A DNA stretch of 38,624 nucleotides from a virus. The translations under genes and the position numbers were made by a program. Positions 2,382 to 28,657 of the stretch are shown in pieces. The notes beneath the pieces are model-generated. The model did not search any database, was not told the DNA's origin, and was given only the letters and a program-made list of their open reading frames with translations. Each line of letters begins with the position of its first letter. The first letter of the stretch is position 1. The stretch covers positions 1-38,624 of the IMG/VR virus record IMGVR_UViG_3300037189_005566; one strand, 5' to 3'.

Positions 2382-3553
2382 GCGAAGAAGCTAATGCGGA
2401 TGCCGATCCCTTCGCTTGCATCTTCCTCGAACTGGAACGGCATCGACGCAATCACGTCGCGGTCGCTGCCATTCAGCGTCGGGTTGCCGTAGCGCACGCG
2501 CGGGATGGACAGCGTGAGGATGCTGCCAGTGCTGTTCTTCATCACGACATACATCGAAGAGGCCGTGCCGAGCAGCGCCTTGTTGAACTCGGCGATGTCA
2601 TCGAAGTAGGCCGTGAACTGGCCAGTGCCGCGGAAGTCGCCTGCGCTGATGCTGTCGGCCACGTAGTCGCCGACGTTACTGCGCGCCTGGCTGTTGTTGG
2701 CCCAGTTAAAGCTGACCGACTGGACGCCGTATTCGGCACCAGCGACGTTGACCCACGGGACGTTGTTGGTCGCATCGACCACTTCGCCAGTAGACGCCGC
2801 GTTGAACGTGCCGCTCGCTTGCGTGGTGCGAAGACCAGAGAGCGCCGTCGCAATCTGATCAGAGCCAACACCGACCGTGTTGAACGTGCCGGTGATGATG
2901 CCCTTGTTCGTCAGCGAGAAGCTGCACGCGTCGATCGTCTCCTTGTCGAAGAGCTCGAAGCGGTTGTCGCTCACGCTGCCAGGCGACTGGAAGACGCGCA
3001 GCATGGCGAAGTTCTTCTGCGTGCTGCCGTTCTTGATCGTGACACCACGGCGCACCGTGAACGGGCCCGTAGGACCGACTGGCCTCGTCAGGTCGATCGA
3101 CATCGTCGCGCCAGGCGTCGAGGTCACGCGCGCGTAGTACTTCACCGTCGGCGAGGCCGTGTCGTAGATCTCGATGACGTCGCCGCGCTCGAAGCCGGTC
3201 GTAGTGCCGGTGAGCACCGTCGTGGCCCACGTGAAGCTGCCCGTGCTCTGGGCCGCCGTAGACGCCGCGCTATAGATCGACGCCTTCAGCATCAACCACC
3301 AGTTCTCTGACGCCGAGGTCGGGATCTGCGTCTCAAAGGGGATCGTCAGAGCCGACTGCGGGCCGACGAGCTTGAGCCCTGCCGGGTTGCGGTTGTTGCG
3401 GATGAGCTGCGACTCAACCGTCTGGTTGGCCGGACCACCGCTGACGCCAGGCTTCTGGACGTTGATGTATTGCCAAGTGCTGTTAGCGGGAACGTCACCA
3501 GTGAGCGACGCGCGCTCGTGGACTGCTAGCTTGCTCGTGCTGATGGAGGCCAT
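2378..3553 (-). CDS. Major tail (tube) protein
   Basis: This 391-aa beta-rich protein lies between the tail terminator and the tail chaperones, where the tail tube gene belongs. Its N-terminus (MASISTSKLAVHERASLTG) and segments such as 'ETQIPTSASENWWLMLKAS' and 'DSISAGDFRGTGQFTAYFDD' resemble the large siphovirus tail-tube family found in Proteobacteria phages, with a central strand-rich insertion (about residues 110-200). Tube subunits polymerise as hexameric rings around the tape measure. The 391-aa length is long for a bare tube domain and suggests one or more surface domains. It ends with an ATGA overlap into the chaperone gene. Confidence 0.8.
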   Translation of the reverse strand: MASISTSKLAVHERASLTGDVPANSTWQYINVQKPGVSGGPANQTVESQLIRNNRNPAGLKLVGPQSALTIPFETQIPTSASENWWLMLKASIYSAASTAAQSTGSFTWATTVLTGTTTGFERGDVIEIYDTASPTVKYYARVTSTPGATMSIDLTRPVGPTGPFTVRRGVTIKNGSTQKNFAMLRVFQSPGSVSDNRFELFDKETIDACSFSLTNKGIITGTFNTVGVGSDQIATALSGLRTTQASGTFNAASTGEVVDATNNVPWVNVAGAEYGVQSVSFNWANNSQARSNVGDYVADSISAGDFRGTGQFTAYFDDIAEFNKALLGTASSMYVVMKNSTGSILTLSIPRVRYGNPTLNGSDRDVIASMPFQFEEDASEGIGIRISFFA

Positions 3554-11631: not shown

Positions 11632-13286
11632 GCCTGGACCTCCTCTTCCACCACCGGCTCATCCTCGACGTCCGGCACTTCCGGCTGGATCGGCGGCGCG
11701 GGCTGCTCGGGCGGGATCGGCATCGACATGCCCGCGAGGTCCGGCCCTTCGGCCTGCGTCTCGGCGACCTCGGCTTCGATGTCCACTTCCTCGCCCAGCG
11801 TGCCGCGCTTCTGGAGCTCGCGCAGGTAGGTGGCTTGCGTGATCTCCTTCGACTGACGCGCCGTGGTCAGCGTCTGAAGGTCGGTCTGCGCCCGCGTCGG
11901 GATGCCGAAGTCGCGGAAGATGTCGATGTCGAACGACTCGGGCAATTCGTCGCTCGCGCCCGAAGTCTCCCACAGCATCGCCATCTCGTAGGCATCGTAA
12001 AGCAGCCACTCCAGTTGCTCGGTCCACGACTGCACGCGGCTCTGCGCTCGCGCGCCCGCAGCGTCAACGGCCGTGGCCGTGCTGCCTGCGGTCACCTGCT
12101 CGACGAACGGCGCAAGGCCGAGGCTCTGCTCCTCGGTGCGGATGTCGCGCAGCCGCTCCATGAGCTTGGTCGCGGCCGCGCCGCTTGTCTCGACGAAGCC
12201 GACCTGCATGTTGGGGTCGCGGCTGATGATCGTGGCGCCTGCGCCGTAGACGATCTCCTGTGTGCCGTCGGCCAGGTCGCTCGACGCGCCCGAGATCGAT
12301 AACGCCGGGTAGCTGTGCCAGTGCAGGTTGCTTGAGAGCGACGAGGTGACGAGCCAGTCGTCCACGTTCTTCCACGCCAGGTCGATCAGCGGCGGCTTGG
12401 CCACCAGCGGGTCGTTGCTGCGCTTGCTGACGTTGCGGAACACGAACGGCACGACGCCGAGCGGGTTGATGCCTTGCTGCACCAGGCGGTAGGGGTCGCG
12501 GTCGGTCGCGCTCGTCGCGGTCGAGGATTGCTTGGCCGTGATCAGCAAGTCGGCCCCGGTGTCGATCGTGCTAGATAGCCCGGCGATCGAGCTAGGCATC
12601 GTGCGCTCCCACATCTCGAAGACCTGCTCCGTCCAGACCAGCACGGTCTGCACGGTGCGCTCCTGCATCGTCTGCGGATCGACCTCGTGGTCTTCATGGT
12701 AGATGGCAATGCCAGCGAGGATGCGCTTGCCCGTCGAGTCACGACGCCACGACCAGTTGATGATGTTGTCGGGGTGGACGAACGCGAAGTACGGCCGCAC
12801 GTCGTTGGCCTCTTCCTCGGCCAGCGTCATGTTGCGGAACGCAATCGGCGCACCGCTCTCGTCGAACTCGGTCGCCACTTGCGCGCCCGGCTTGTCCACG
12901 AGCAGGCAGGCAAGGCCCGTGTCCGCCATCGAATCGAGCAGCATGCGCCCCATGGTCGTGAGGTTGGTGTCCTCGCGGTCGCAATCGTCTTCGATGTAGC
13001 GCAGGTTCTCGGGCAGCAGCTCGGAGTCCTTCAGCACGATCGTGCGCTGGAACGGCTTGTCTACGATGCCCGTGATGGCGTCATCGTAGGCAGGGAACAG
13101 GAACGTGCGCAGCAAGCGAGAGACATACTCCTTGGGCTGCCTGCGCTCGCGGTGGTCCATCGGCGTGAGCGCCGTGCCCATCGAGCGCATCGCGGTCGTG
13201 CCGCCTCGCAGCGCACGCGTGATGATGCGGTCAACCTCCATGGCCTTCCGCGAACTGTGCCACTGCCCAATCGTGTGTCCGTCCAT
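11628..13286 (-). CDS. Portal protein (DUF4055-like)
   Basis: This 552-aa protein resembles DUF4055-type portal proteins. Diagnostic stretches include 'LRTFLFPAYDDAITGIVDKP' near residues 60-80, 'TTMGRMLLDSMADTGLACLL' followed by 'VDKPG' (about 110-135), and a helical C-terminal part with 'TARQSKEITQATYLRELQKR' leading to an acidic Pro/Glu tail. The portal forms the dodecameric DNA gate at one capsid vertex. It begins at 13286 within the terminase stop (1-bp overlap) and ends with ATGA into the mini-gene. The acidic Pro-rich end is probably unstructured. Confidence 0.88.
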   Translation of the reverse strand: MDGHTIGQWHSSRKAMEVDRIITRALRGGTTAMRSMGTALTPMDHRERRQPKEYVSRLLRTFLFPAYDDAITGIVDKPFQRTIVLKDSELLPENLRYIEDDCDREDTNLTTMGRMLLDSMADTGLACLLVDKPGAQVATEFDESGAPIAFRNMTLAEEEANDVRPYFAFVHPDNIINWSWRRDSTGKRILAGIAIYHEDHEVDPQTMQERTVQTVLVWTEQVFEMWERTMPSSIAGLSSTIDTGADLLITAKQSSTATSATDRDPYRLVQQGINPLGVVPFVFRNVSKRSNDPLVAKPPLIDLAWKNVDDWLVTSSLSSNLHWHSYPALSISGASSDLADGTQEIVYGAGATIISRDPNMQVGFVETSGAAATKLMERLRDIRTEEQSLGLAPFVEQVTAGSTATAVDAAGARAQSRVQSWTEQLEWLLYDAYEMAMLWETSGASDELPESFDIDIFRDFGIPTRAQTDLQTLTTARQSKEITQATYLRELQKRGTLGEEVDIEAEVAETQAEGPDLAGMSMPIPPEQPAPPIQPEVPDVEDEPVVEEEVQA

Positions 13287-14569
13287 TACGTGATCCTCAT
13301 GCTGCTGCCACCGATGGGATGGCGTTCGTGAATGTAGTATCGCAGAGCGTCGCTCCAGTGGGTGCGCTTAGGGTCGCTCTTGTCGATGTCGCGCGTGTCC
13401 TTGTCCTCGTTCCACGTGACCGACTCCAAGTCCTTGAGCGTCTGCGGTGCGGTCTGCGCGTTGATTGCGAAGCGTACGTCGCCTGCTGCGTTGAGCAGCC
13501 GAGCGTTCACGCTGTTGACCGAGTCCACGATCGGCGGAGCAGACCTGGTCACGCGGTCGAGAATGCGCGGGAACGTCTTGCGCAGATGCTGACGCACCAG
13601 GTCCCAGTCGTTCGACTGCGCGCTGGTCCTGCGCTGATTGCCAGACGGGTCGCCGTAGATAGCGACGTCGCCCGTGTGCCCGCGATACATGCGCGCCAGC
13701 TCGTCGCAGACTAGATCGGTGCGGCTGTCGTCTGCGATGTGCACTTCGCCGATGACGGCCGTGACCACCTTGGGCCCCAGCGTCTGTTCTTGCACCACCA
13801 CGGCCGAGCCTGGTGCGACGTTGAAGTCGAAGCAGAACACGAGAGGCAGCGTCGGCTCGTATCGCACCGGCTGCACGTGGACGGCCGTGTCGAACGCGTA
13901 GTAGACGCGGCCAGATGCGGTGAGGAAGGCGGCCTCATACTCCTGCGCGAACATGCGCGGGTCGAGGTCACGCTTGGCGGCCTCGACCTCGGCCGCGCCG
14001 ATGATATCGCTCGAAGTCCAGTGGAACGCGTCCCAGTCAGGCGTTGTCTTGGCGTTGGTCCACAGGTCGTAAAGCAGCGCCCGTCCCTTCGGTCGCCCGA
14101 TGAACCAGCACCAGCCAGGTCGGCCGCGCGTCGAGAGCGCAGGACGCAGCGACGATGACCAGGCAGACCGCTTGCACTCGTCGATCTCGTCGATGACGCA
14201 GCCGTCGATCGGGATGCCCTCGACGCGCTGCGGGCGGTCCATGCCAACGACCATCAGCCGCGAGCCGGTCTTGTAGTGGATCGTCAGCTCGGACTCGCTG
14301 ATCGCTGAGATCCACTGACGCGGGGACAGCGCCTTGAGATCATCCCACCAGATGCGCTTGGCCTGGTCGCGGGTCGGAGCCGCGGCAATGAACGTCGGCG
14401 TCGGCACCTTGGGCGGATCCAGCGCGGCCTCGACGAGCTTGCGCTTGGCCCTCTCGGTCTTGCCAGATCGGCGCCCGGCGGCCACGACCTTCCAGCGCGC
14501 GGTGGACTGGACTAGCCGCACTTGCTCGGGATGCGGCTCCAGCGGATACCACCTAGCTGGCAGCGGCAT
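13286..14569 (-). CDS. terL: Terminase large subunit
   Basis: This 427-aa packaging motor has both expected domains. The ATPase part shows Walker A 'AAGRRSGKTE' (Lys37), Walker B 'GCVIDEID' (Asp127/Glu128) and 'AAPTRDQAKRIWW'. The nuclease part begins 'VFCFDFN' with candidate metal-binding Asp248, followed by 'YGDPSGNQR' and a late 'THWSDALRYYI'. It overlaps the small subunit gene by 17 bp and the portal gene by 1 bp. Together with the small subunit it would cut concatemers and drive DNA into the capsid. Length is at the short end for the family, but all core motifs are present. Confidence 0.95.
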   Translation of the reverse strand: MPLPARWYPLEPHPEQVRLVQSTARWKVVAAGRRSGKTERAKRKLVEAALDPPKVPTPTFIAAAPTRDQAKRIWWDDLKALSPRQWISAISESELTIHYKTGSRLMVVGMDRPQRVEGIPIDGCVIDEIDECKRSAWSSSLRPALSTRGRPGWCWFIGRPKGRALLYDLWTNAKTTPDWDAFHWTSSDIIGAAEVEAAKRDLDPRMFAQEYEAAFLTASGRVYYAFDTAVHVQPVRYEPTLPLVFCFDFNVAPGSAVVVQEQTLGPKVVTAVIGEVHIADDSRTDLVCDELARMYRGHTGDVAIYGDPSGNQRRTSAQSNDWDLVRQHLRKTFPRILDRVTRSAPPIVDSVNSVNARLLNAAGDVRFAINAQTAPQTLKDLESVTWNEDKDTRDIDKSDPKRTHWSDALRYYIHERHPIGGSSMRIT

Positions 14570-18142: not shown

Positions 18143-18402
18143 GCCTGCTCCTTCGCCTCGTCGGCAATCTCGTGGATCCGATGCAGCGCCTTGGCCCAGC
18201 GGCCACCGTGCGATCCCTTGTCCCACTTGACGAACTCGCCGATGGCCTCGCGCAGCATCTCGACCTCGTCTGCCAACCGTTGGATGGCGCAGGCGTGGTG
18301 CCCGACGTAGCACGCCTCGAAGTGCGTGCGCTGGATGCCGTCCTTGTCAACGGACCACGACATGCGCACGAGATCTAGTCCCAACTTGGTGAGCTTGGTC
18401 AT
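18139..18402 (-). CDS. Hypothetical accessory protein
   Basis: This 87-aa protein has a C-terminal amphipathic helix ('AIQRLADEVEMLREAIGEFV') and a His/Cys-containing middle ('FEACYVGHHACAIQ') that might bind a metal. It overlaps the sigma-factor stop by ATGA and the next start by GTGA, so it is translated as part of that operon. No family is recognised. Confidence 0.6.
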   Translation of the reverse strand: MTKLTKLGLDLVRMSWSVDKDGIQRTHFEACYVGHHACAIQRLADEVEMLREAIGEFVKWDKGSHGGRWAKALHRIHEIADEAKEQA

Positions 18403-18872
18403 TGGATGGCCCTCTCAATCTTGCGGCGTGCGCGGCACACGACCTGGCGCACGGCCTCGGGCGACATGCGGAACTTCTGCGCGGCCTGGTTGTCGTCGAT
18501 GCCTTGCATGCGAAACGCGAGCACCTCGACGTCTCGACGCGGCAACGCGGCGATGGCCTGCATCGCCTGCTGCGCCGTCTCCTGCGCGATCAGCAGCTCG
18601 ACCGGGTCAAGCTCAACGGAGACCTCGATGCGGTCGCTGTCGCGTTGCAACTCGGGCTCGCGCACGGTCTCGCGGCGGCGGCGCTGCTGCTGGATCTGCC
18701 AGGCCGCGTGGATCGTCCAGCCGAGGAAGCTCTGCGCGTCCTGCCCGTATTGGCACCAATGCGCAGCCGTGTCCTGCGCCAGGTCATCGGCGCCGTAGGC
18801 CATCCACGCCTTGCGCCGGATGCGGCGAGAGACTGCGTGCAGTCGGTCGATGTCGTGCTTGGTGATGTTCAC
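18399..18872 (-). CDS. ECF-type RNA polymerase sigma factor
   Basis: This 157-aa protein has both regions of an ECF-like sigma-70 factor. Residues about 20-66 resemble region 2 ('ADDLAQDTAAHWCQ' then 'FLGWTIHAAWQIQQQRRRRE'). Residues about 109-153 resemble region 4, 'ALPRRDVEVLAFRMQGIDDN' followed by an HTH 'AAQKFRMSPEAVRQVVCRAR'. It could direct host RNA polymerase to phage middle or late promoters, or act as a regulator. No anti-sigma gene is evident. It sits in the accessory operon, coupled by ATGA to the SprT-like gene upstream. Confidence 0.82.
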   Translation of the reverse strand: MNITKHDIDRLHAVSRRIRRKAWMAYGADDLAQDTAAHWCQYGQDAQSFLGWTIHAAWQIQQQRRRRETVREPELQRDSDRIEVSVELDPVELLIAQETAQQAMQAIAALPRRDVEVLAFRMQGIDDNQAAQKFRMSPEAVRQVVCRARRKIERAIQ

Positions 18873-21034: not shown

Positions 21035-21062
21035 AACGTAGAGTTCGCTCGCCCACTGTCAA
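21035..21062 (-). promoter_or_regulatory. Sigma-70-type promoter of accessory operon (P1)
   Basis: On the minus strand TTGACA (21062-21057), 16 nt of spacer and TACGTT (21040-21035) form a good -35/-10 pair. It faces the accessory operon and is divergent from the HTH gene. GGAAG precedes TTGACA and GCGAGCGAA lies in the spacer. Both strings recur in the promoter at 27069-27042. Confidence 0.65.
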
Positions 21063-21121: not shown

Positions 21122-21129
21122 TAGTGCCT

Positions 21130-21384
21130 ATGTCGGAGCCGACCACAAGTGCCACCAAGGCGACCACCAAGCTGTCCACGCTGATCGAGCGGACCGGCTT
21201 CACGCAATACCAGGTCGCCCGCCAGCTCGGCCTCTCCCCGAACACCATCTACTCGTGGTGCCGCGGCCTGGCTCGACCATGGAGGACCAAGGCCTACCGG
21301 CTCTCGACGTTCCTCGGCATCTCCATCACCGAGTTGATGTTGGCCTGGCAGGCCGGAGTCCCCAAGCGTCGGCGCCGGTCATAA
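21130..21384 (+). CDS. Cro/CI-type HTH repressor
   Basis: This 84-aa protein is the only gene on the plus strand. It contains an HTH_3/Cro-CI domain over about residues 18-68: 'FTQYQVARQLGLSPNTIYSW' with helix 2-turn-helix 3, followed by 'AYRLSTFLGISITELM'. The C-terminus is basic (KRRRRS). It lacks the C-terminal dimerisation/autocleavage domain of lambda CI. It is divergent from the accessory operon and next to the repeat-rich region, so it may repress P1 and/or bind the repeats. The start is either this ATG or the GTG at 21124. Confidence 0.8.
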   Translation: MSEPTTSATKATTKLSTLIERTGFTQYQVARQLGLSPNTIYSWCRGLARPWRTKAYRLSTFLGISITELMLAWQAGVPKRRRRS

Positions 21385-21782
21385 GCGCCACGAGCTGCGG
21401 ATCTACACCAGGTCGGGCGGATTTACACCACCTGCGGCCGAACTACGACACCTCCACGCTTTCGGAGCGGCGCAAGTAGGGGGGCTTCCTTCACTTTCTT
21501 CAACCTTTCTTCAAGGGGTCAACTTGAAGAAAGGTCCGAACGTAAGTGTATGTATTATATATACTTAATATATATAGTATACCTTATTTCAATACTTCAA
21601 GGCTACCCCCCTTCCCAAGTTAGGGTAAAGTTAGACCACCTATTATCTCCCTCCACGGTAGGGGTGGCTTATTTCAAGAAATAAGGGTCCAAGCGATCCC
21701 ACTTCGTGCTGCAAGTCGTTGCCTTGCGCTGGGTTCTAGCTCGGACCCTTTCTTCAAGCCTTTCTTCAAGGCGACCCTTTCT
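21385..21782. other. Candidate replication origin (AT-rich, repeat-rich, no gene)
   Basis: This 398-bp stretch lies between the convergent 3' ends of the HTH gene and the primase-helicase, so it needs no promoter, and no convincing coding frame is seen. It contains two imperfect 20-bp tandem units beginning GCGGATCTACACC and GCGGATTTACACC (21398-21437), a block at about 21545-21600 made mostly of A/T, an 18-bp near-palindrome with 8-bp arms CTTATTTC and GAAATAAG (21668-21685), and six copies of a 13-bp repeat at its two ends. AT-rich DNA flanked by iteron-like repeats beside the primase gene is the pattern of a phage origin. No initiator gene of a known family is evident. Confidence 0.6.
21493..21534. 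repeat. Iteron cluster A
   Basis: Three copies of the unit CCTTTCTTCAAGG are seen: a variant at 21493-21505 (10 of 13 matching), an exact copy at 21504-21516, and an inverted copy at 21522-21534 (12 of 13). The unit is itself a partial palindrome, CCTT and AAGG around five bases. Confidence 0.75.
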
Positions 21783-21788
21783 TCAAGG
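21747..21788. repeat. Iteron cluster B
   Basis: Three direct copies of CCTTTCTTCAAGG lie at 21747-21759 (12 of 13), 21759-21771 (exact) and 21776-21788 (exact), the last overlapping the final codons of the primase gene. Spacing is 12 and 17 bp. They match the units of cluster A about 230 bp away. Confidence 0.78.
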
Positions 21789-23969
21789 GGCGAGGAAGTC
21801 GCGCGCGATCAGGACGGTCTTCTTGCGTCCGAGCGTCACGGTCTCCTGCGTCACGACCTCTTCGCCTTCGACAAGCGAGGCCAGCACGTCCTTGCGTTCG
21901 CTACGTCGCAGCCACTGGGTCTTGCGGCTGAGTTGGGCCATGGTGATGCCCATGGGCCCAGCGTCGCGGACGAGCCGCAGGACGCGCTTCTGCATGGCCT
22001 GGACGGCGTTGTCGGCCATGGTCTCGGCCGCTTCGGCGCACGTGCGCTCGATGCACCAGGACACGAGCTCGCCCGCCCACTCGACGTCATCGAGGCTGAT
22101 GCGGTCGGACGGATCGCGGCAAACCGAGCGCAACAGCGCCAGCTTCTCCACGTGCTCCGTGAACCGCGCCCAAAGGTCCGCAAAGGCCGCCAGTTCGCCT
22201 CTGCGCAGTTCCATGATGCGAACGTCGTTCCGGTCCGCCAACGAGCCCAGGAGCGATTCTGCGGCTTCCTGGTAGGCCACCTTGCGGCAGACGCCGTGCA
22301 GGTTGCCTTGCCGACGGGTCAGACGCTCCAGTTCGCGCAGGCGTTCGAGCACGTAAGCGGGCGGATCGTCGCGGTCCACCGTCTGCCGTTGCGGGAGAGC
22401 GTCATCGGACACGAACACCAGCAGACGGTTCAAGAAGCCATCACGGATGGCGCCCGAGTCCATGCTGGAGAACAGCTCGCTCGGCACGCCGGTGCCGTAG
22501 AAGCACAGGTGCGGCTCCTCAAGCGGGGTCGGCGCGTTGAGTCGGCGGTCTGCGTAGGCGGCCGCGAGCCAGGTGTCGCCCGCGCAACTGAACAGCTCAA
22601 GCAGGGTGCGCTTGATGCCGAGCTGGTGGCCGCCCGCGTTCGGGTGGGTCACCTGCTGCAAGAACTTGGTCATCTCGTCGATCAAGCAGACGTGCGACCT
22701 GGTCTGCTCATCGACCAGCGAGGAGCGGATGCCGGAGTCCGACTTCCACTCGCTCGGGCCGATCCAGTTGCTCAGGCCGGCGAGCGCGAAGGCCCGCTGC
22801 GGCAGACGCAGGGACGCGTTCTTGCCGCTGGCCGTCTCGGCGATGCCGAGCATGTAGAGGTTGGTGCGCAGGCCGCCACGGGTCTGGACACGCCTGCCCA
22901 TCAGAGCGCCCATGCACGCGAGCACGGACGCCAGGCAGAGTGACGGCTGCCTACGGATCGACTGCGTCAGCATCCACGACACCAGCTCGCCGATAATGCC
23001 GGGCACGTCGAGGAGCTTGCGCGGGAACGGCCGCTTCTGGAGCTGCCTCGGCGCGTAGTCCGGCTCGGGCTCGGGGACTTCGATGTCGCCCGCCAGTTCC
23101 TGCAACACGCCGGGCATCCAGCCGCCGTCTCGAGCAAGGTGGAACAGCGTGCCGAGCGTGATCTCGGAGCCGTCCCAACGGAACTCCTTGAACGAGTTCC
23201 ACCGTCTGCGCTGGTCCTTGGGCGTGAACTTGCCCGACTGCGCCGACCACTCGCACCAGATCTCGTAGGCCTGGTCCTTCGCGCCAGTGCTCTTGAGCGC
23301 CATGCCGACTTGCAGCCACAGGTCGTGCGGGTCCGAGTCCACGTGCTTGAGCGCGTCTTCGATCGACGCGACGTCCCCGTCCGACAACGGCATGGCGTCG
23401 CTGGACTCCGCGCCAGAGTTCTCGCCTCCACGGTGGCTGCCGCACAGTTCGCGCACCCAGCCAGGCATCTGGTCGATGTCGCTGACGCCGTCGCTGTCCA
23501 CGTCGAACGGGTCGCCCGTGCGCCACTCACGGCCAGGCGATGCGGGCGACGGCAGGACCACGTATCCGCCGACGGCGCGGACATCGACGCCAGGCCGCAC
23601 GCCGACGCGCGAGCTCACCGGCGGATTGGGCAGCGAGTAGAACAGATGACGGCCGCCGCGTGGCGTCGTGGCGATCAGGCCGCACAGGTCGCGGCCGTGG
23701 TCTTGCAGCAACACGGACCAGACGGCCGGGCCGTCGATCGACTTGGTTGGGTCGTAGTCGAGGTCGATTACGGCGAGGCTGCTGCGCTCGCAATCGACGC
23801 CGACCTGCGCGTCTGGCCACTGCGCCCACCACGCGGCGAGACGCGCGGGTTCGTTGGTGGCTTCCTTGTGACCGTGTTGGGTGAACGGGTGCTTGTTAGC
23901 GCGGACTGGGAACACCAGCCAGCCGCGTGCTGCATATCGCAGCGCCGCATCGAGAGGAGAGGCGAACAT
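21783..23969 (-). CDS. Primase-polymerase / helicase (prim-pol plus DUF3987-like)
   Basis: This 728-aa replication protein has an N-terminal prim-pol (archaeo-eukaryotic primase-like, PF09250) domain over about residues 1-165. Catalytic motifs are 'VIDLDYD' (Asp69, Asp71), 'GGRHLFY' (His108) and 'GVDVRAVGGYVVLPSP' (Asp129). Residues about 195-275 look like a primase C-terminal (PriCT-2) domain ('VGMALKSTGAKDQAYEIWCE'). Residues about 330-600 look like a DUF3987-type ATPase with a P-loop-like 'GIAETASGKNASLRLP' and 'VCLIDEMTKFLQQV'. A C-terminal winged-helix-like end follows. It probably makes primers and unwinds DNA; host polymerase would elongate. It starts with a TGATG overlap to the helicase gene. 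Confidence 0.88.
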   Translation of the reverse strand: MFASPLDAALRYAARGWLVFPVRANKHPFTQHGHKEATNEPARLAAWWAQWPDAQVGVDCERSSLAVIDLDYDPTKSIDGPAVWSVLLQDHGRDLCGLIATTPRGGRHLFYSLPNPPVSSRVGVRPGVDVRAVGGYVVLPSPASPGREWRTGDPFDVDSDGVSDIDQMPGWVRELCGSHRGGENSGAESSDAMPLSDGDVASIEDALKHVDSDPHDLWLQVGMALKSTGAKDQAYEIWCEWSAQSGKFTPKDQRRRWNSFKEFRWDGSEITLGTLFHLARDGGWMPGVLQELAGDIEVPEPEPDYAPRQLQKRPFPRKLLDVPGIIGELVSWMLTQSIRRQPSLCLASVLACMGALMGRRVQTRGGLRTNLYMLGIAETASGKNASLRLPQRAFALAGLSNWIGPSEWKSDSGIRSSLVDEQTRSHVCLIDEMTKFLQQVTHPNAGGHQLGIKRTLLELFSCAGDTWLAAAYADRRLNAPTPLEEPHLCFYGTGVPSELFSSMDSGAIRDGFLNRLLVFVSDDALPQRQTVDRDDPPAYVLERLRELERLTRRQGNLHGVCRKVAYQEAAESLLGSLADRNDVRIMELRRGELAAFADLWARFTEHVEKLALLRSVCRDPSDRISLDDVEWAGELVSWCIERTCAEAAETMADNAVQAMQKRVLRLVRDAGPMGITMAQLSRKTQWLRRSERKDVLASLVEGEEVVTQETVTLGRKKTVLIARDFLAP

Positions 23970-25656: not shown

Positions 25657-25694
25657 GAAAACGGCCCGCACGCCATGTCCAAGCGAGCGGGCCG
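25657..25694 (-). terminator. Rho-independent terminator/attenuator between DUF669 and helicase genes
   Basis: On the minus strand CGGCCCGC (25694-25687) pairs with GCGGGCCG (25669-25662) around a 17-nt loop, followed at once by TTTTC. It lies inside a co-directional operon, 27 bp before the helicase start, so it probably lowers rather than blocks downstream expression. Confidence 0.65.
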
Positions 25695-26242: not shown

Positions 26243-26998
26243 TCAGGACACCGTGTCCGCGATCGCGCCCATGAGTTGGTTCCATCCAGCCTGCGGGTCG
26301 TTGGCAGGGATGGGGATCTGGTCCGGCAAGCGGTAGCGGTTCTTCGCACGGAAGGCCGGGCGCTCGGTGGTCATCAGCACGCGCGAGCCATCGCCAACGC
26401 CACGCTTGCGGTCACCGCTGACCACGGCCGTGACGCGGTAGTTGGCGAACAGCACAGCGTCGGCCCAATCGACGATCGTCGCTTCGGCGAGCTTGTGCAA
26501 GCGCAACTGATAGCGGTCGTATGCATCGACCTCGGGCGACTCGAAGCGCACGACCTGGCTGTGGCCGATCAGCACGACGGTGATGCCCTTCGCGCGCAGC
26601 TTGTCGAAGCCGTTGGTCAGCCGACGCCACTCCATCGCCGCAAACGTGAAGCCCTTTCCGTAGCCGAACTCCTCGATATTCTTCTTGCCGTTCTCCTCGC
26701 AGACGTGTTGCCACAGCAGCGGCTCCAGCGCGTCGAGCGAATCGAGGATGACCGTGTCGAAGTCGTGCTTCTCGTTGATCAGCACGGCCATTGCTTCGAG
26801 AACCTGGCGGTAGCTCGTGGCCTTCGGGAAGGCGGGCGCGGTGATCGTGCCCAAGCCGTCTTCGGTCTGGATGAAGACCGGGTTCGACGCGCAGGCGGCC
26901 AACGTGGTCTTGCCGATGCCGGGGACGCCGTAGATGACGATGCGCGGAGCCTGCGGGACGTTCTGTTGGATGTCGTTCAGGGAGATCATGTCGTTCAC
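26243..26998 (-). CDS. Sak4-like RecA-fold ATPase
   Basis: This protein of about 251 aa has Walker A 'YGVPGIGKTT' (residues 23-32), Walker B 'TVILDSLDAL' (Asp86) and 'VVLIGHSQVV', the pattern of the AAA_24/Sak4 phage recombinases. These act in single-strand annealing or recombination together with an SSB, here most likely the DUF669 protein. The start may be the GTG at 26998 or the ATG at 26989. It is the first gene after the promoter at 27069-27042. Its end leads into the DUF669 gene after about 50 bp. Confidence 0.82.
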   Translation of the reverse strand: MNDMISLNDIQQNVPQAPRIVIYGVPGIGKTTLAACASNPVFIQTEDGLGTITAPAFPKATSYRQVLEAMAVLINEKHDFDTVILDSLDALEPLLWQHVCEENGKKNIEEFGYGKGFTFAAMEWRRLTNGFDKLRAKGITVVLIGHSQVVRFESPEVDAYDRYQLRLHKLAEATIVDWADAVLFANYRVTAVVSGDRKRGVGDGSRVLMTTERPAFRAKNRYRLPDQIPIPANDPQAGWNQLMGAIADTVS

Positions 26999-27041
26999 TC
27001 GTTCAGTCGGTTGCTAGGTCTGCGACGTGCAGACCGGCGGG

Positions 27042-27069
27042 AAGCTAGCGATTCGCTCGCGCGTGTCAA
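27042..27069 (-). promoter_or_regulatory. Sigma-70-type promoter of replication module (P2)
   Basis: On the minus strand TTGACA (27069-27064), 16 nt and TAGCTT (27047-27042) precede the Sak4-like gene by about 45 nt. The sequence around it closely resembles P1: GGAAG before TTGACA and GCGAGCGAA in the spacer are shared. Confidence 0.68.
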
Positions 27070-27254
27070 CTTCCTTTCAGCTTTTCTAGAGCAGCAACGG
27101 AAAGCGCGATGGCGCAGAACCAAAGCAAGGCGCACAGGACCAGCGCGGCCCAGCAGTAGAGCTTGCTCGAGGAGCGAGCGTCGCAGGACTTAGCGCACGG
27201 GCGTAGAAGACAGGAGCCGAAGGCGTGGCAAGGCATGGTGGGAAGGATGCCCAC
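27066..27254 (-). CDS. Possible small Cys-rich membrane protein
   Basis: A 62-codon frame (GTG at 27254, ATG at 27236) would encode a Cys-rich N-terminus ('CHAFGSCLLRPCAKSC') and one hydrophobic segment ('YCWAALVLCALLWFCAIALS') with a basic tail. No Shine-Dalgarno site is visible, it lies just after a terminator, and its stop overlaps P2. It may be a real small membrane protein expressed by read-through, or chance. Confidence 0.35.
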   Translation of the reverse strand: MGILPTMPCHAFGSCLLRPCAKSCDARSSSKLYCWAALVLCALLWFCAIALSVAALEKLKGS

Positions 27255-27273
27255 GACGCGCCCGGTCAGGAGT

Positions 27274-27299
27274 GAGAAAACCCGGCACGGTCATGCCGG
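27274..27299 (-). terminator. Rho-independent terminator
   Basis: On the minus strand CCGGCA (27299-27294), loop TGACCG and TGCCGG (27287-27282) are followed by GTTTTCTC (27281-27274). It would end the RNA of the locus described next and also stop late transcription coming round the circle before the replication module. Confidence 0.75.
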
Positions 27300-27436
27300 A
27301 GGCTCGTCGTGGGCGGTGTGCTGAGAAAGTGACCGGCGGCGACCCCTCACGAACATGCGCTGCTCTCGTTCAACGCATCACTGTCGCCGCCGGTCTGGGA
27401 GGTAGGCACGGCCCTCGCAAGCCGTGCCCATGTCGC
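27274..27436 (-). ncRNA. Candidate structured non-coding RNA
   Basis: A stretch without a convincing gene, read on the minus strand, holds three perfect hairpins in a row: GGCACGGC/GCCGTGCC with an 8-nt loop (27428-27405), GACCGGCGGCGAC/GTCGCCGCCGGTC, a 13-bp stem with a 39-nt loop (27395-27331), and the terminator stem (27299-27282) with its T-run. Inside the long loop ATGCG/CGCAT can pair, and a loop GAAC could pair with a following GUUC as a pseudoknot. About 31 nt between the last two stems look unpaired. A promoter-like site lies just upstream. The predicted RNA is about 160 nt. Function is unknown; a regulator of host or phage mRNA, an anti-defence decoy or a replication control RNA are all possible. 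Confidence 0.55.
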
Positions 27437-27442
27437 GGCGGA

Positions 27443-27471
27443 ATCGTGGCAAGCGTTCTGCTTGCTGTCAA
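27443..27471 (-). promoter_or_regulatory. Promoter with operator-like spacer upstream of the structured RNA (P3)
   Basis: TTGACA (27471-27466) on the minus strand is followed by a 17-nt spacer that is, in full, the inverted repeat GCAAGC-AGAAC-GCTTGC (27465-27449), then CACGAT (27448-27443). The -35 is perfect, the -10 weak (3 of 6). An inverted repeat filling the spacer is where a repressor or activator would bind. AGAAG precedes TTGACA, similar to GGAAG in P1 and P2. Confidence 0.5.
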
Positions 27472-27474
27472 CTT

Positions 27475-27732
27475 CTACTCACCGGCGTCGCCGTCCAGTG
27501 GGTAGATGTCCACCATGCGCTGCCACTCGCCGTAGACGTCAAGCAGCGCGGCCGCGTCGAGCTGCGCCGCGAACAGGAAGACCTGCGCAAGCGCGTCCTC
27601 AAGGCGGTCCATCTTCGCTCGCTCTTCAGCGGGCGCGAGAGCTTCGACGCCGAGGCCGCGGACCATTGCGAGATACTGCTCGCGGATGCGCTGCACCTCG
27701 GCCTGGATGTTCGTCCTTCTCTGGTCCGCCAT
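27475..27732 (-). CDS. Hypothetical helical protein
   Basis: This 85-aa protein is mainly helical and acidic ('IQAEVQRIREQYLAMVRGLG', 'EERAKMDRLEDALAQVFLFA'). It begins inside the last 107 bp of the metallophosphoesterase frame. It is the last gene of the long late transcript before the non-coding locus. No family is recognised, but the codon pattern and helix periodicity support it as a real gene. Confidence 0.62.
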   Translation of the reverse strand: MADQRRTNIQAEVQRIREQYLAMVRGLGVEALAPAEERAKMDRLEDALAQVFLFAAQLDAAALLDVYGEWQRMVDIYPLDGDAGE

Positions 27733-28657
27733 GGTTCACCGCTTGGTAGATGCGCCCGTCAACTAACAGCCTGCCGTCGTGGATGTGGTGCTGGCGGATC
27801 GAGACGGCGCCTTCCGTCTCTTCGATGCAGGAGAAGCCCTGCTGCCAGTCGGGGTCGTGCGTCCAGTCGGGGTCTGGATCCGACAGGTGCCCGTTCTCAA
27901 CTCCCCAGTGCACGCCGTTGCGGTCGGTGCGCGCCACGATGCCCATGCGGTGAGTATGGCCCATGGCGACCGAGCCGCCGCGCCTGGTCATGTGACCACG
28001 CACGGAGTTGCCAGCGTCCTTGCGGATAATGCTGCCGTGGAAGATCTCGAACGGCGGGACAGTGAGCTTGCACCGCTGGTCGATGAACTCAATGCCCAAC
28101 GCTTGCAGGTCTAGCAACTCGTCGAGCGCGAGGCTCGTCACGCTGGACAGCTCGGGCGCATGTTGCGTGAGATACCGCTCCAAGCGGTTCTCGTGGTTGC
28201 CCATGGTGTAGTAGATGCGCGCCTTCTTGTGATCGTGGCGCAGCACGCGGAGGAACTGGCGAGCCTCGTTGATCTCGTCTTGGAACGTGATCGGGTTGTG
28301 CTTGTCCTTCGGGTGGCTGCTGATCTCCTGCGCGTCGAGGATGTCGCCGTTGAGCACTATGACGGTCGGCTTCCAATCGCGCGCAAACTCCAGCGCGATG
28401 GCCAGCGCGGCCTGATCGTGGTAGGGGATGTGGATGTCGGACAGGATCAGGCAGCGGTTGGACGAGACCGGCTTGGCCTGCACCGTATGCAAGCGGACTT
28501 GCACTTGGTCACGCTTGATGACGAGCCGCGTCACCTCGCTACGCATCACGCATCGAACGCGCCACTCGGTCACGCCTAACTCTCGGGCGACAGACTTTTG
28601 CGATTGCCCGCAAGTTACTCGAGCACGGATTAGTTCTTCGAGCTCGGCGCGTTCCAT
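27626..28657 (-). CDS. HTH-metallophosphoesterase (calcineurin-like)
   Basis: This 343-aa protein has an N-terminal homeodomain-like HTH ('CGQSQKSVARELGVTEWRVR', residues about 16-40) followed by a complete calcineurin-like phosphoesterase: 'SDIHIPYHD' (Asp74, His76), 'LNGDILD' (Asp105), 'MGNHENRLE' (Asn154, His155), 'FHGSI' (His207) and 'MGHTHR' (His234, His236). These are the metal and active-site residues of the family, which cleaves phosphodiesters or phosphomonoesters. Its last 35 codons overlap the next gene in another frame and give an Arg/Pro-rich tail that may have little function. AAGGAGAGG lies just before the ATG. Substrate is unknown; nucleotide signals or nucleic acid ends are candidates. 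Confidence 0.85.
   Translation of the reverse strand: MERAELEELIRARVTCGQSQKSVARELGVTEWRVRCVMRSEVTRLVIKRDQVQVRLHTVQAKPVSSNRCLILSDIHIPYHDQAALAIALEFARDWKPTVIVLNGDILDAQEISSHPKDKHNPITFQDEINEARQFLRVLRHDHKKARIYYTMGNHENRLERYLTQHAPELSSVTSLALDELLDLQALGIEFIDQRCKLTVPPFEIFHGSIIRKDAGNSVRGHMTRRGGSVAMGHTHRMGIVARTDRNGVHWGVENGHLSDPDPDWTHDPDWQQGFSCIEETEGAVSIRQHHIHDGRLLVDGRIYQAVNHGGPEKDEHPGRGAAHPRAVSRNGPRPRRRSSRAR

Follow-up and report, generated by a model that had tools for sequence, protein, structure and literature searches.

Between the late and replication modules of an uncultivated tailed phage lies, on the minus strand, a previously undescribed RNA that matches no Rfam family. As judged by comparison of few lineages, it is an evolutionarily conserved structured RNA, with compensatory changes in its stems and G.U pairs of strand-specific distribution. 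We lean, with modest confidence, towards reading the region as a structured leader, at the 5′ end of an early-type phage transcript, that probably regulates a small membrane protein in cis.

Genome setting and anatomy of the RNA

The window is the whole of IMG/VR virus record IMGVR_UViG_3300037189_005566 (38,624 bases). Protein families identify a tailed phage, and the contig appears circularly permuted: terminase large subunit, portal, major head protein and tape measure lie at its left end and further tail genes at 31-38 kb. After the tail genes come a metallophosphoesterase, an 85-aa ORF, the RNA region, a Sak4-like ATPase, a DUF669 protein, a helicase and a primase; the genes from metallophosphoesterase to primase and the structured RNA are all on the minus strand. 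The initial annotation had placed the element between the late and replication modules, and this location holds. Elsewhere in the window, 18399-18872 (minus) encodes a protein weakly similar to sigma-70 region 4 and ECF sigma factors (E 3e-4, which misses the Pfam cut-off). Adjoining the primase gene, 21494-21790 holds an A+T-rich island surrounded by repeats of CTTGAAGAAAGG in either orientation, a candidate replication origin. The features needed here are as follows.

13286-14569: terminase large subunit, assigned from protein families
27626-28657, minus: metallophosphoesterase, assigned from protein families
27475-27732, minus: 85-aa ORF upstream of the RNA, the last gene before it; conserved in relatives by alignment
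27466-27475, minus: GAAGTTGACA, putative promoter element of the RNA, with the -35 TTGACA at 27466-27471
27449-27465: dyad GCAAGC-N5-GCTTGC, filling the 17-bp spacer between -35 and -10; possible operator
27443-27448, minus: weak -10-like hexamer CACGAT, 3/6 consensus matches, assigned by position only
27405-27429, minus: P1, 8-bp hairpin
27331-27395, minus: P2, 13-bp outer stem and 39-nt loop with a foldable inner stem
27242-27321, minus: P3 with flanks (ACACC, 15-bp outer stem, inner hairpin, linker); the stem-bounded module is 27249-27314
27277-27299, minus: inner hairpin of P3 plus TTTT, formerly called a terminator; hairpin conserved, TTTT not
27066-27236, minus: small ORF of 56 aa; predicted membrane protein with a Cys-rich N-terminus and a single hydrophobic segment
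27064-27073, minus: second promoter with GAAGTTGACA, preceding the Sak4-like gene; spacer 27044-27060 with the same dyad form
26243-26998, minus: Sak4-like ssDNA annealing ATPase, first gene of the replication module (phrog_124, E 2.5e-45; Pfam AAA_24, E 4.4e-49)

Read on the minus strand from 27475, the order is GAAGTTGACA, the 17-nt spacer GCAAGCAGAACGCTTGC, CACGAT, P1, P2 and P3. Several elements proposed in the initial annotation are present as described: a perfect TTGACA (27471-27466), a 17-nt spacer that is wholly an inverted repeat (27465-27449), an 8-bp hairpin (27429-27405) and a 13-bp hairpin with a foldable 39-nt loop (27395-27331). P2 carries AGGGG at 27343-27347, on the 3′ side of an internal loop. 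A pseudoknot within P2 between AGGGG and pyrimidines was considered and dropped as sterically implausible, because AGGGG adjoins the 3′ arm directly, leaving no linker.

Downstream of P2 the anatomy differs from that first described. The supposed 31 or so unpaired nucleotides belong mostly to the 5′ side of a stem of 15 bp, mismatched at one position, in which 27314-27300 pairs with 27263-27249, and the interval originally drawn ends at 27274, cutting through this outer stem of P3. The stem encloses a 6-bp hairpin (27299-27282) whose loop contains UGACC, followed by a linker that ends in a second UGACC. What had been taken for a Rho-independent terminator is this inner hairpin followed by TTTT, which is CCTT in the closest relatives, L002 and L003. 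A conserved U-run directly after a G+C-rich hairpin, the mark of such a terminator, is therefore lacking, and no T-run is conserved after any of the hairpins, in contrast to the terminator at 25661-25690, where the T-run is kept. This intrinsic terminator (GCGGCCCGC...GCGGGCCGTTTTC, minus) lies before the helicase gene and is conserved in three lineages (counterparts in L086 at about 3312-3348 and L085 at about 2378-2414); weak Rfam scores for Atu_C7 overlap it in L085 and L086. In every lineage the stems of the RNA are bordered by single-stranded, pyrimidine-rich stretches.

Conservation in four phage lineages

Searches with neighbouring proteins found close relatives (L002 and L003, with L004 identical in the stretch compared), middle relatives (L085 and L086, whose Sak4 is about 75% identical to that of the window) and a distant one (L005). 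The RNA is present at the same genomic place in all of them, and P2 and P3 occur in four phage lineages. L007 shares the upstream genes but not the RNA, which is thus not essential to this phage group. In relatives a small gene for a HELLH putative metallopeptidase follows the 85-aa ORF (L086 604-906, L085 182-490, L005 6180-6479, L007 6177-6455); it is absent from the window lineage.

P1 is invariant in the window, L002 and L003, and is not found at that place in L085 or L086. Among the same three close relatives the outer stems of P2 and P3 are identical except for one G-C to G-U change, with variation in the P2 loops and the P3 linker. L085 and L086 can be aligned by sequence, and their P3 differs by two double-sided and two G-U changes with zero broken pairs, which in two sequences is not significant alone (133 of 500 shuffles). 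Across the four lineages the stem sequences are quite different and pairing is kept: by hand alignment, double-sided changes affect 14 of the 15 outer pairs of P2 and 14 of the 15 of P3. The stems are thus preserved through compensatory changes, the point on which the initial annotation had staked its structured RNA. Non-Watson-Crick pairs in the modelled strand number 8 G.U, 0 A.C and 3 other in the same alignment; the excess of G.U over A.C fits an RNA transcribed from the minus strand alone (p about 0.004 with both kinds taken as equally likely).

MAFFT shifted the P3 arm between lineages and misaligned the P2 5′ arm; the pair counts were made on arms aligned by hand, and homology must therefore rest on genomic position, loop motifs and a blind model test. 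The motifs kept are ACACS before P3, UGACC or UGAUC in the P3 loop, UGACC before the P3 3′ arm and AGGGG before the P2 3′ arm. The arrangement of the modules is looser. P3 precedes P2 in L005, and the spacer between them ranges from about 16 to 170 nt, the upper value being that of L085. Extra hairpins, one with GACCGG, lie between P2 and P3 in L086 (about 1045-1115) and L085 (about 625-785) and are absent in the window.

A P3 covariance model trained on L085 and L086 alone was searched over 79 kb. Its top matches were P3 of L003, L002 and the window (E 0.00025 to 0.0012, the window at 0.0012), followed by P3 of L005 at E 0.25. With default filters the model misses even the window copy, so its silence at other loci means little. 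It also matches the antisense strand of L085 (24.5 bits) because a hairpin is nearly palindromic; the match in the window, by comparison, has a different stem sequence with the UGACC motifs present.

Folding of the whole 207 nt on the plus strand is unremarkable (z -0.96). Against dinucleotide shuffles the minus-strand modules reach z -3.8 (P3) and -4.2 (P2) in the window and -4.5 to -6.3 in homologues, and of 3000 dinucleotide shuffles made from each lineage's sequence, 0-7 matched the descriptors for P3 and P2. Over about 4 Mb of relatives the P3 descriptor found the known loci and two weak strays, while three shuffled passes gave five matches; strong matches were confined to the position of the RNA. 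The P2 descriptor alone is unspecific (85 matches in two shuffled passes).

That the RNA lies outside known classes, as first suggested, is borne out by Rfam 15, in which no family reached the gathering threshold in the window, L005, L103 or L117. Relaxed searches found nothing at E 5 or below in window 26990-27490, and in L085 and L086 the sole match touching the RNA region was the sR34 snoRNA at E 4.7. Annotated phage genomes yielded no relative of the RNA region or of the upstream proteins tested. Further members sought through upstream protein families, the small ORF and two DNA patterns, and among Sak4 relatives in viral and bacterial collections scanned with the structure descriptors, came from these four lineages only; DNA-pattern matches beyond the known members were missing either the structure or the context and were rejected.

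Promoter set and downstream ORF

Where chance would give 0.06 occurrences, the motif GAARTTGACA has three exact sites in the window, all on the minus strand. One precedes the RNA and another Sak4; the third, at 21057, adjoins a Cro/CI-like HTH gene that runs divergently. The site of the RNA recurs at the equivalent place in L002, L003, L085 and L086, reading GAAAGTTGACA in the last two, and the L085 and L086 contigs carry three corresponding sites, at the RNA, at Sak4 and ~6-7 kb further on. L005 has no GAARTTGACA site. By motif and position, the putative promoter of the RNA belongs to a three-site set that also serves replication genes. As to the RNA having its own promoter, a promoter-like site is supported by the perfect TTGACA in its conserved context; the -10 hexamer, CACGAT, is weak at 3/6, and a promoter scan reports no site at the TTGACA/CACGAT pair.

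The spacer of this promoter consists on the minus strand of GCAAGC and GCTTGC around agaac, and a 6-bp dyad has p of about 0.007 in a random 17-mer. The form GCNAGC-N5-GCTNGC occurs twice in the window (0.22 expected), both times in a promoter spacer, that of the RNA and that of Sak4. The proposal that the dyad is the RNA's own operator gains some support, since the next promoter has the only other copy of this dyad form in its spacer; L085 and L086 lack the dyad. The common dyad makes a repressor shared by the RNA and Sak4 promoters plausible and, together with the promoter set, argues against the earlier view that the RNA is switched independently of both modules. An 86-aa Cro/CI-like HTH protein is encoded at 21124-21384 on the plus strand, opposite to the phage genes and divergent from the third GAAGTTGACA site; it is a candidate repressor of the three-promoter set.

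The small ORF begins 12 nt after P3 in the window. Across all four lineages, 9-20 nt separate the end of the last hairpin from the ATG of this ORF, despite varying hairpin number and order, and the predicted membrane proteins are 27-56 aa long with one hydrophobic segment each. Relatives of 50-56 aa are confined to these phages and align with invariant Cys and Trp residues and the hydrophobic segment; the counterpart in L005, a hydrophobic ORF of 27 aa, shows barely any sequence similarity and lies 9 nt after the last hairpin. The protein has no Pfam family, and the substitution pattern is weakly coding-like among close relatives. No Shine-Dalgarno-like motif precedes the ORF in any of the four lineages; about two thirds of the ORFs inspected in this phage have one. 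In the window there is no GAARTTGACA site between the RNA and the small ORF. The stop codon of the ORF, TGA, is part of the following TTGACA in the window, L002, L003 and L085; in L086 it falls a few nucleotides short of that hexamer. The start of the ORF so soon after the last hairpin, with no promoter-like site of its own, and the lack of a conserved terminator leave the description of the RNA as stand-alone without support.

Proposed mode of action

Since the small ORF follows the structures in every lineage despite changes in hairpin number and order, a cis-acting leader is the most economical reading. We propose that the host-RNA-polymerase-like promoter GAAGTTGACA, probably repressed jointly with the neighbouring replication promoter, would start an RNA at about 27436 that folds into P1, P2 and P3 and continues into the small ORF at 27236. 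P2 and P3 most likely act in cis and would control this ORF. The unpaired UGACC, in the loop and beside the stem, and AGGGG, in the internal loop, may be read by a protein or the ribosome, which would set translation or stability of the message. The conserved strand-specific structure, the synteny with the small ORF and the promoter-motif set all favour the leader reading; against it stand the barely similar 27-aa ORF of L005, which has no GAARTTGACA, the absence of the RNA from L007 and the weakly coding-like pattern of the small ORF. With four lineages only, the linkage in cis could partly reflect gene order in compact genomes.

A rather unlikely alternative is a trans-acting non-coding RNA of about 190 nt in the window, longer in L085 and L086, that ends near P3 and is merely followed by the small ORF. 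Such an RNA would pair with other messages or bind a protein through its unpaired pyrimidine tracts (CCUCCC, UUCUUCC-like) or the repeated UGACC. The promoter motif of its own, two stable modules with duplicated UGACC, the pyrimidine-rich single strands beside the stems in all lineages and the TTTT of the window copy, which could terminate weakly, would all suit such an RNA; the want of a conserved terminator and the constant position of an ORF that has no promoter-like site of its own argue against it. We think it improbable that the element acts on elongating polymerase, by antitermination or attenuation, and so controls read-through into the replication operon from either the late operon or the RNA promoter, in the manner of the put RNAs of phage HK022. 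Two strong stems would arise soon after an early-type promoter start, upstream of the replication operon and of the conserved terminator at 25661-25690, but a separate promoter at 27064, past the RNA, serves the replication genes, and the modules are swapped in L005 and far apart in L085. A DNA-level element, whether replication origin or hairpins in single-stranded DNA, is very improbable despite the long inverted repeats beside replication genes, given the bias to G.U over A.C on the RNA strand and the better origin candidate at 21494-21790.

Known systems offer partial parallels to the leader. In type I toxin-antitoxin systems such as tisB and hok, a long folded leader precedes a small single-segment membrane protein with no usable Shine-Dalgarno sequence at its start, a layout that the phage region is predicted to share. 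Unlike tisB and hok, to which it has no sequence relationship, it shows no antisense RNA promoter (a scan of both strands found no sigma-70-type site, and the same scan missed the TTGACA of the RNA), and its protein has a Cys-rich N-terminus. The put antiterminator RNAs of HK022 are two stem-loops near the start of an early transcript that suppress downstream terminators in cis. In general layout P2 and P3 are likewise two stem-loops near the putative start site of an early phage transcript; unlike put, they are far apart in some lineages, swapped in L005 and followed by a small ORF. Metagenome-derived candidate structured RNAs such as those of PMC2864571 and PMC8040213 are also conserved, covarying and intergenic with function unassigned; the present RNA differs in that it turned up here only in phages and in matching no Rfam 15 family.

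Covariation across the lineages compared, an unvarying position ahead of a small predicted membrane protein and a promoter set that can be defined together make a testable regulatory unit at the boundary of the late and replication modules. Few phage leader RNAs with comparative support are known to us. We suggest, tentatively, that P2 and P3 may represent a new phage RNA class of interchangeable modules whose duplicated UGACC motifs are bound by a phage or host factor. If so, the phage would time its small membrane protein and its entry into replication through P2 and P3.
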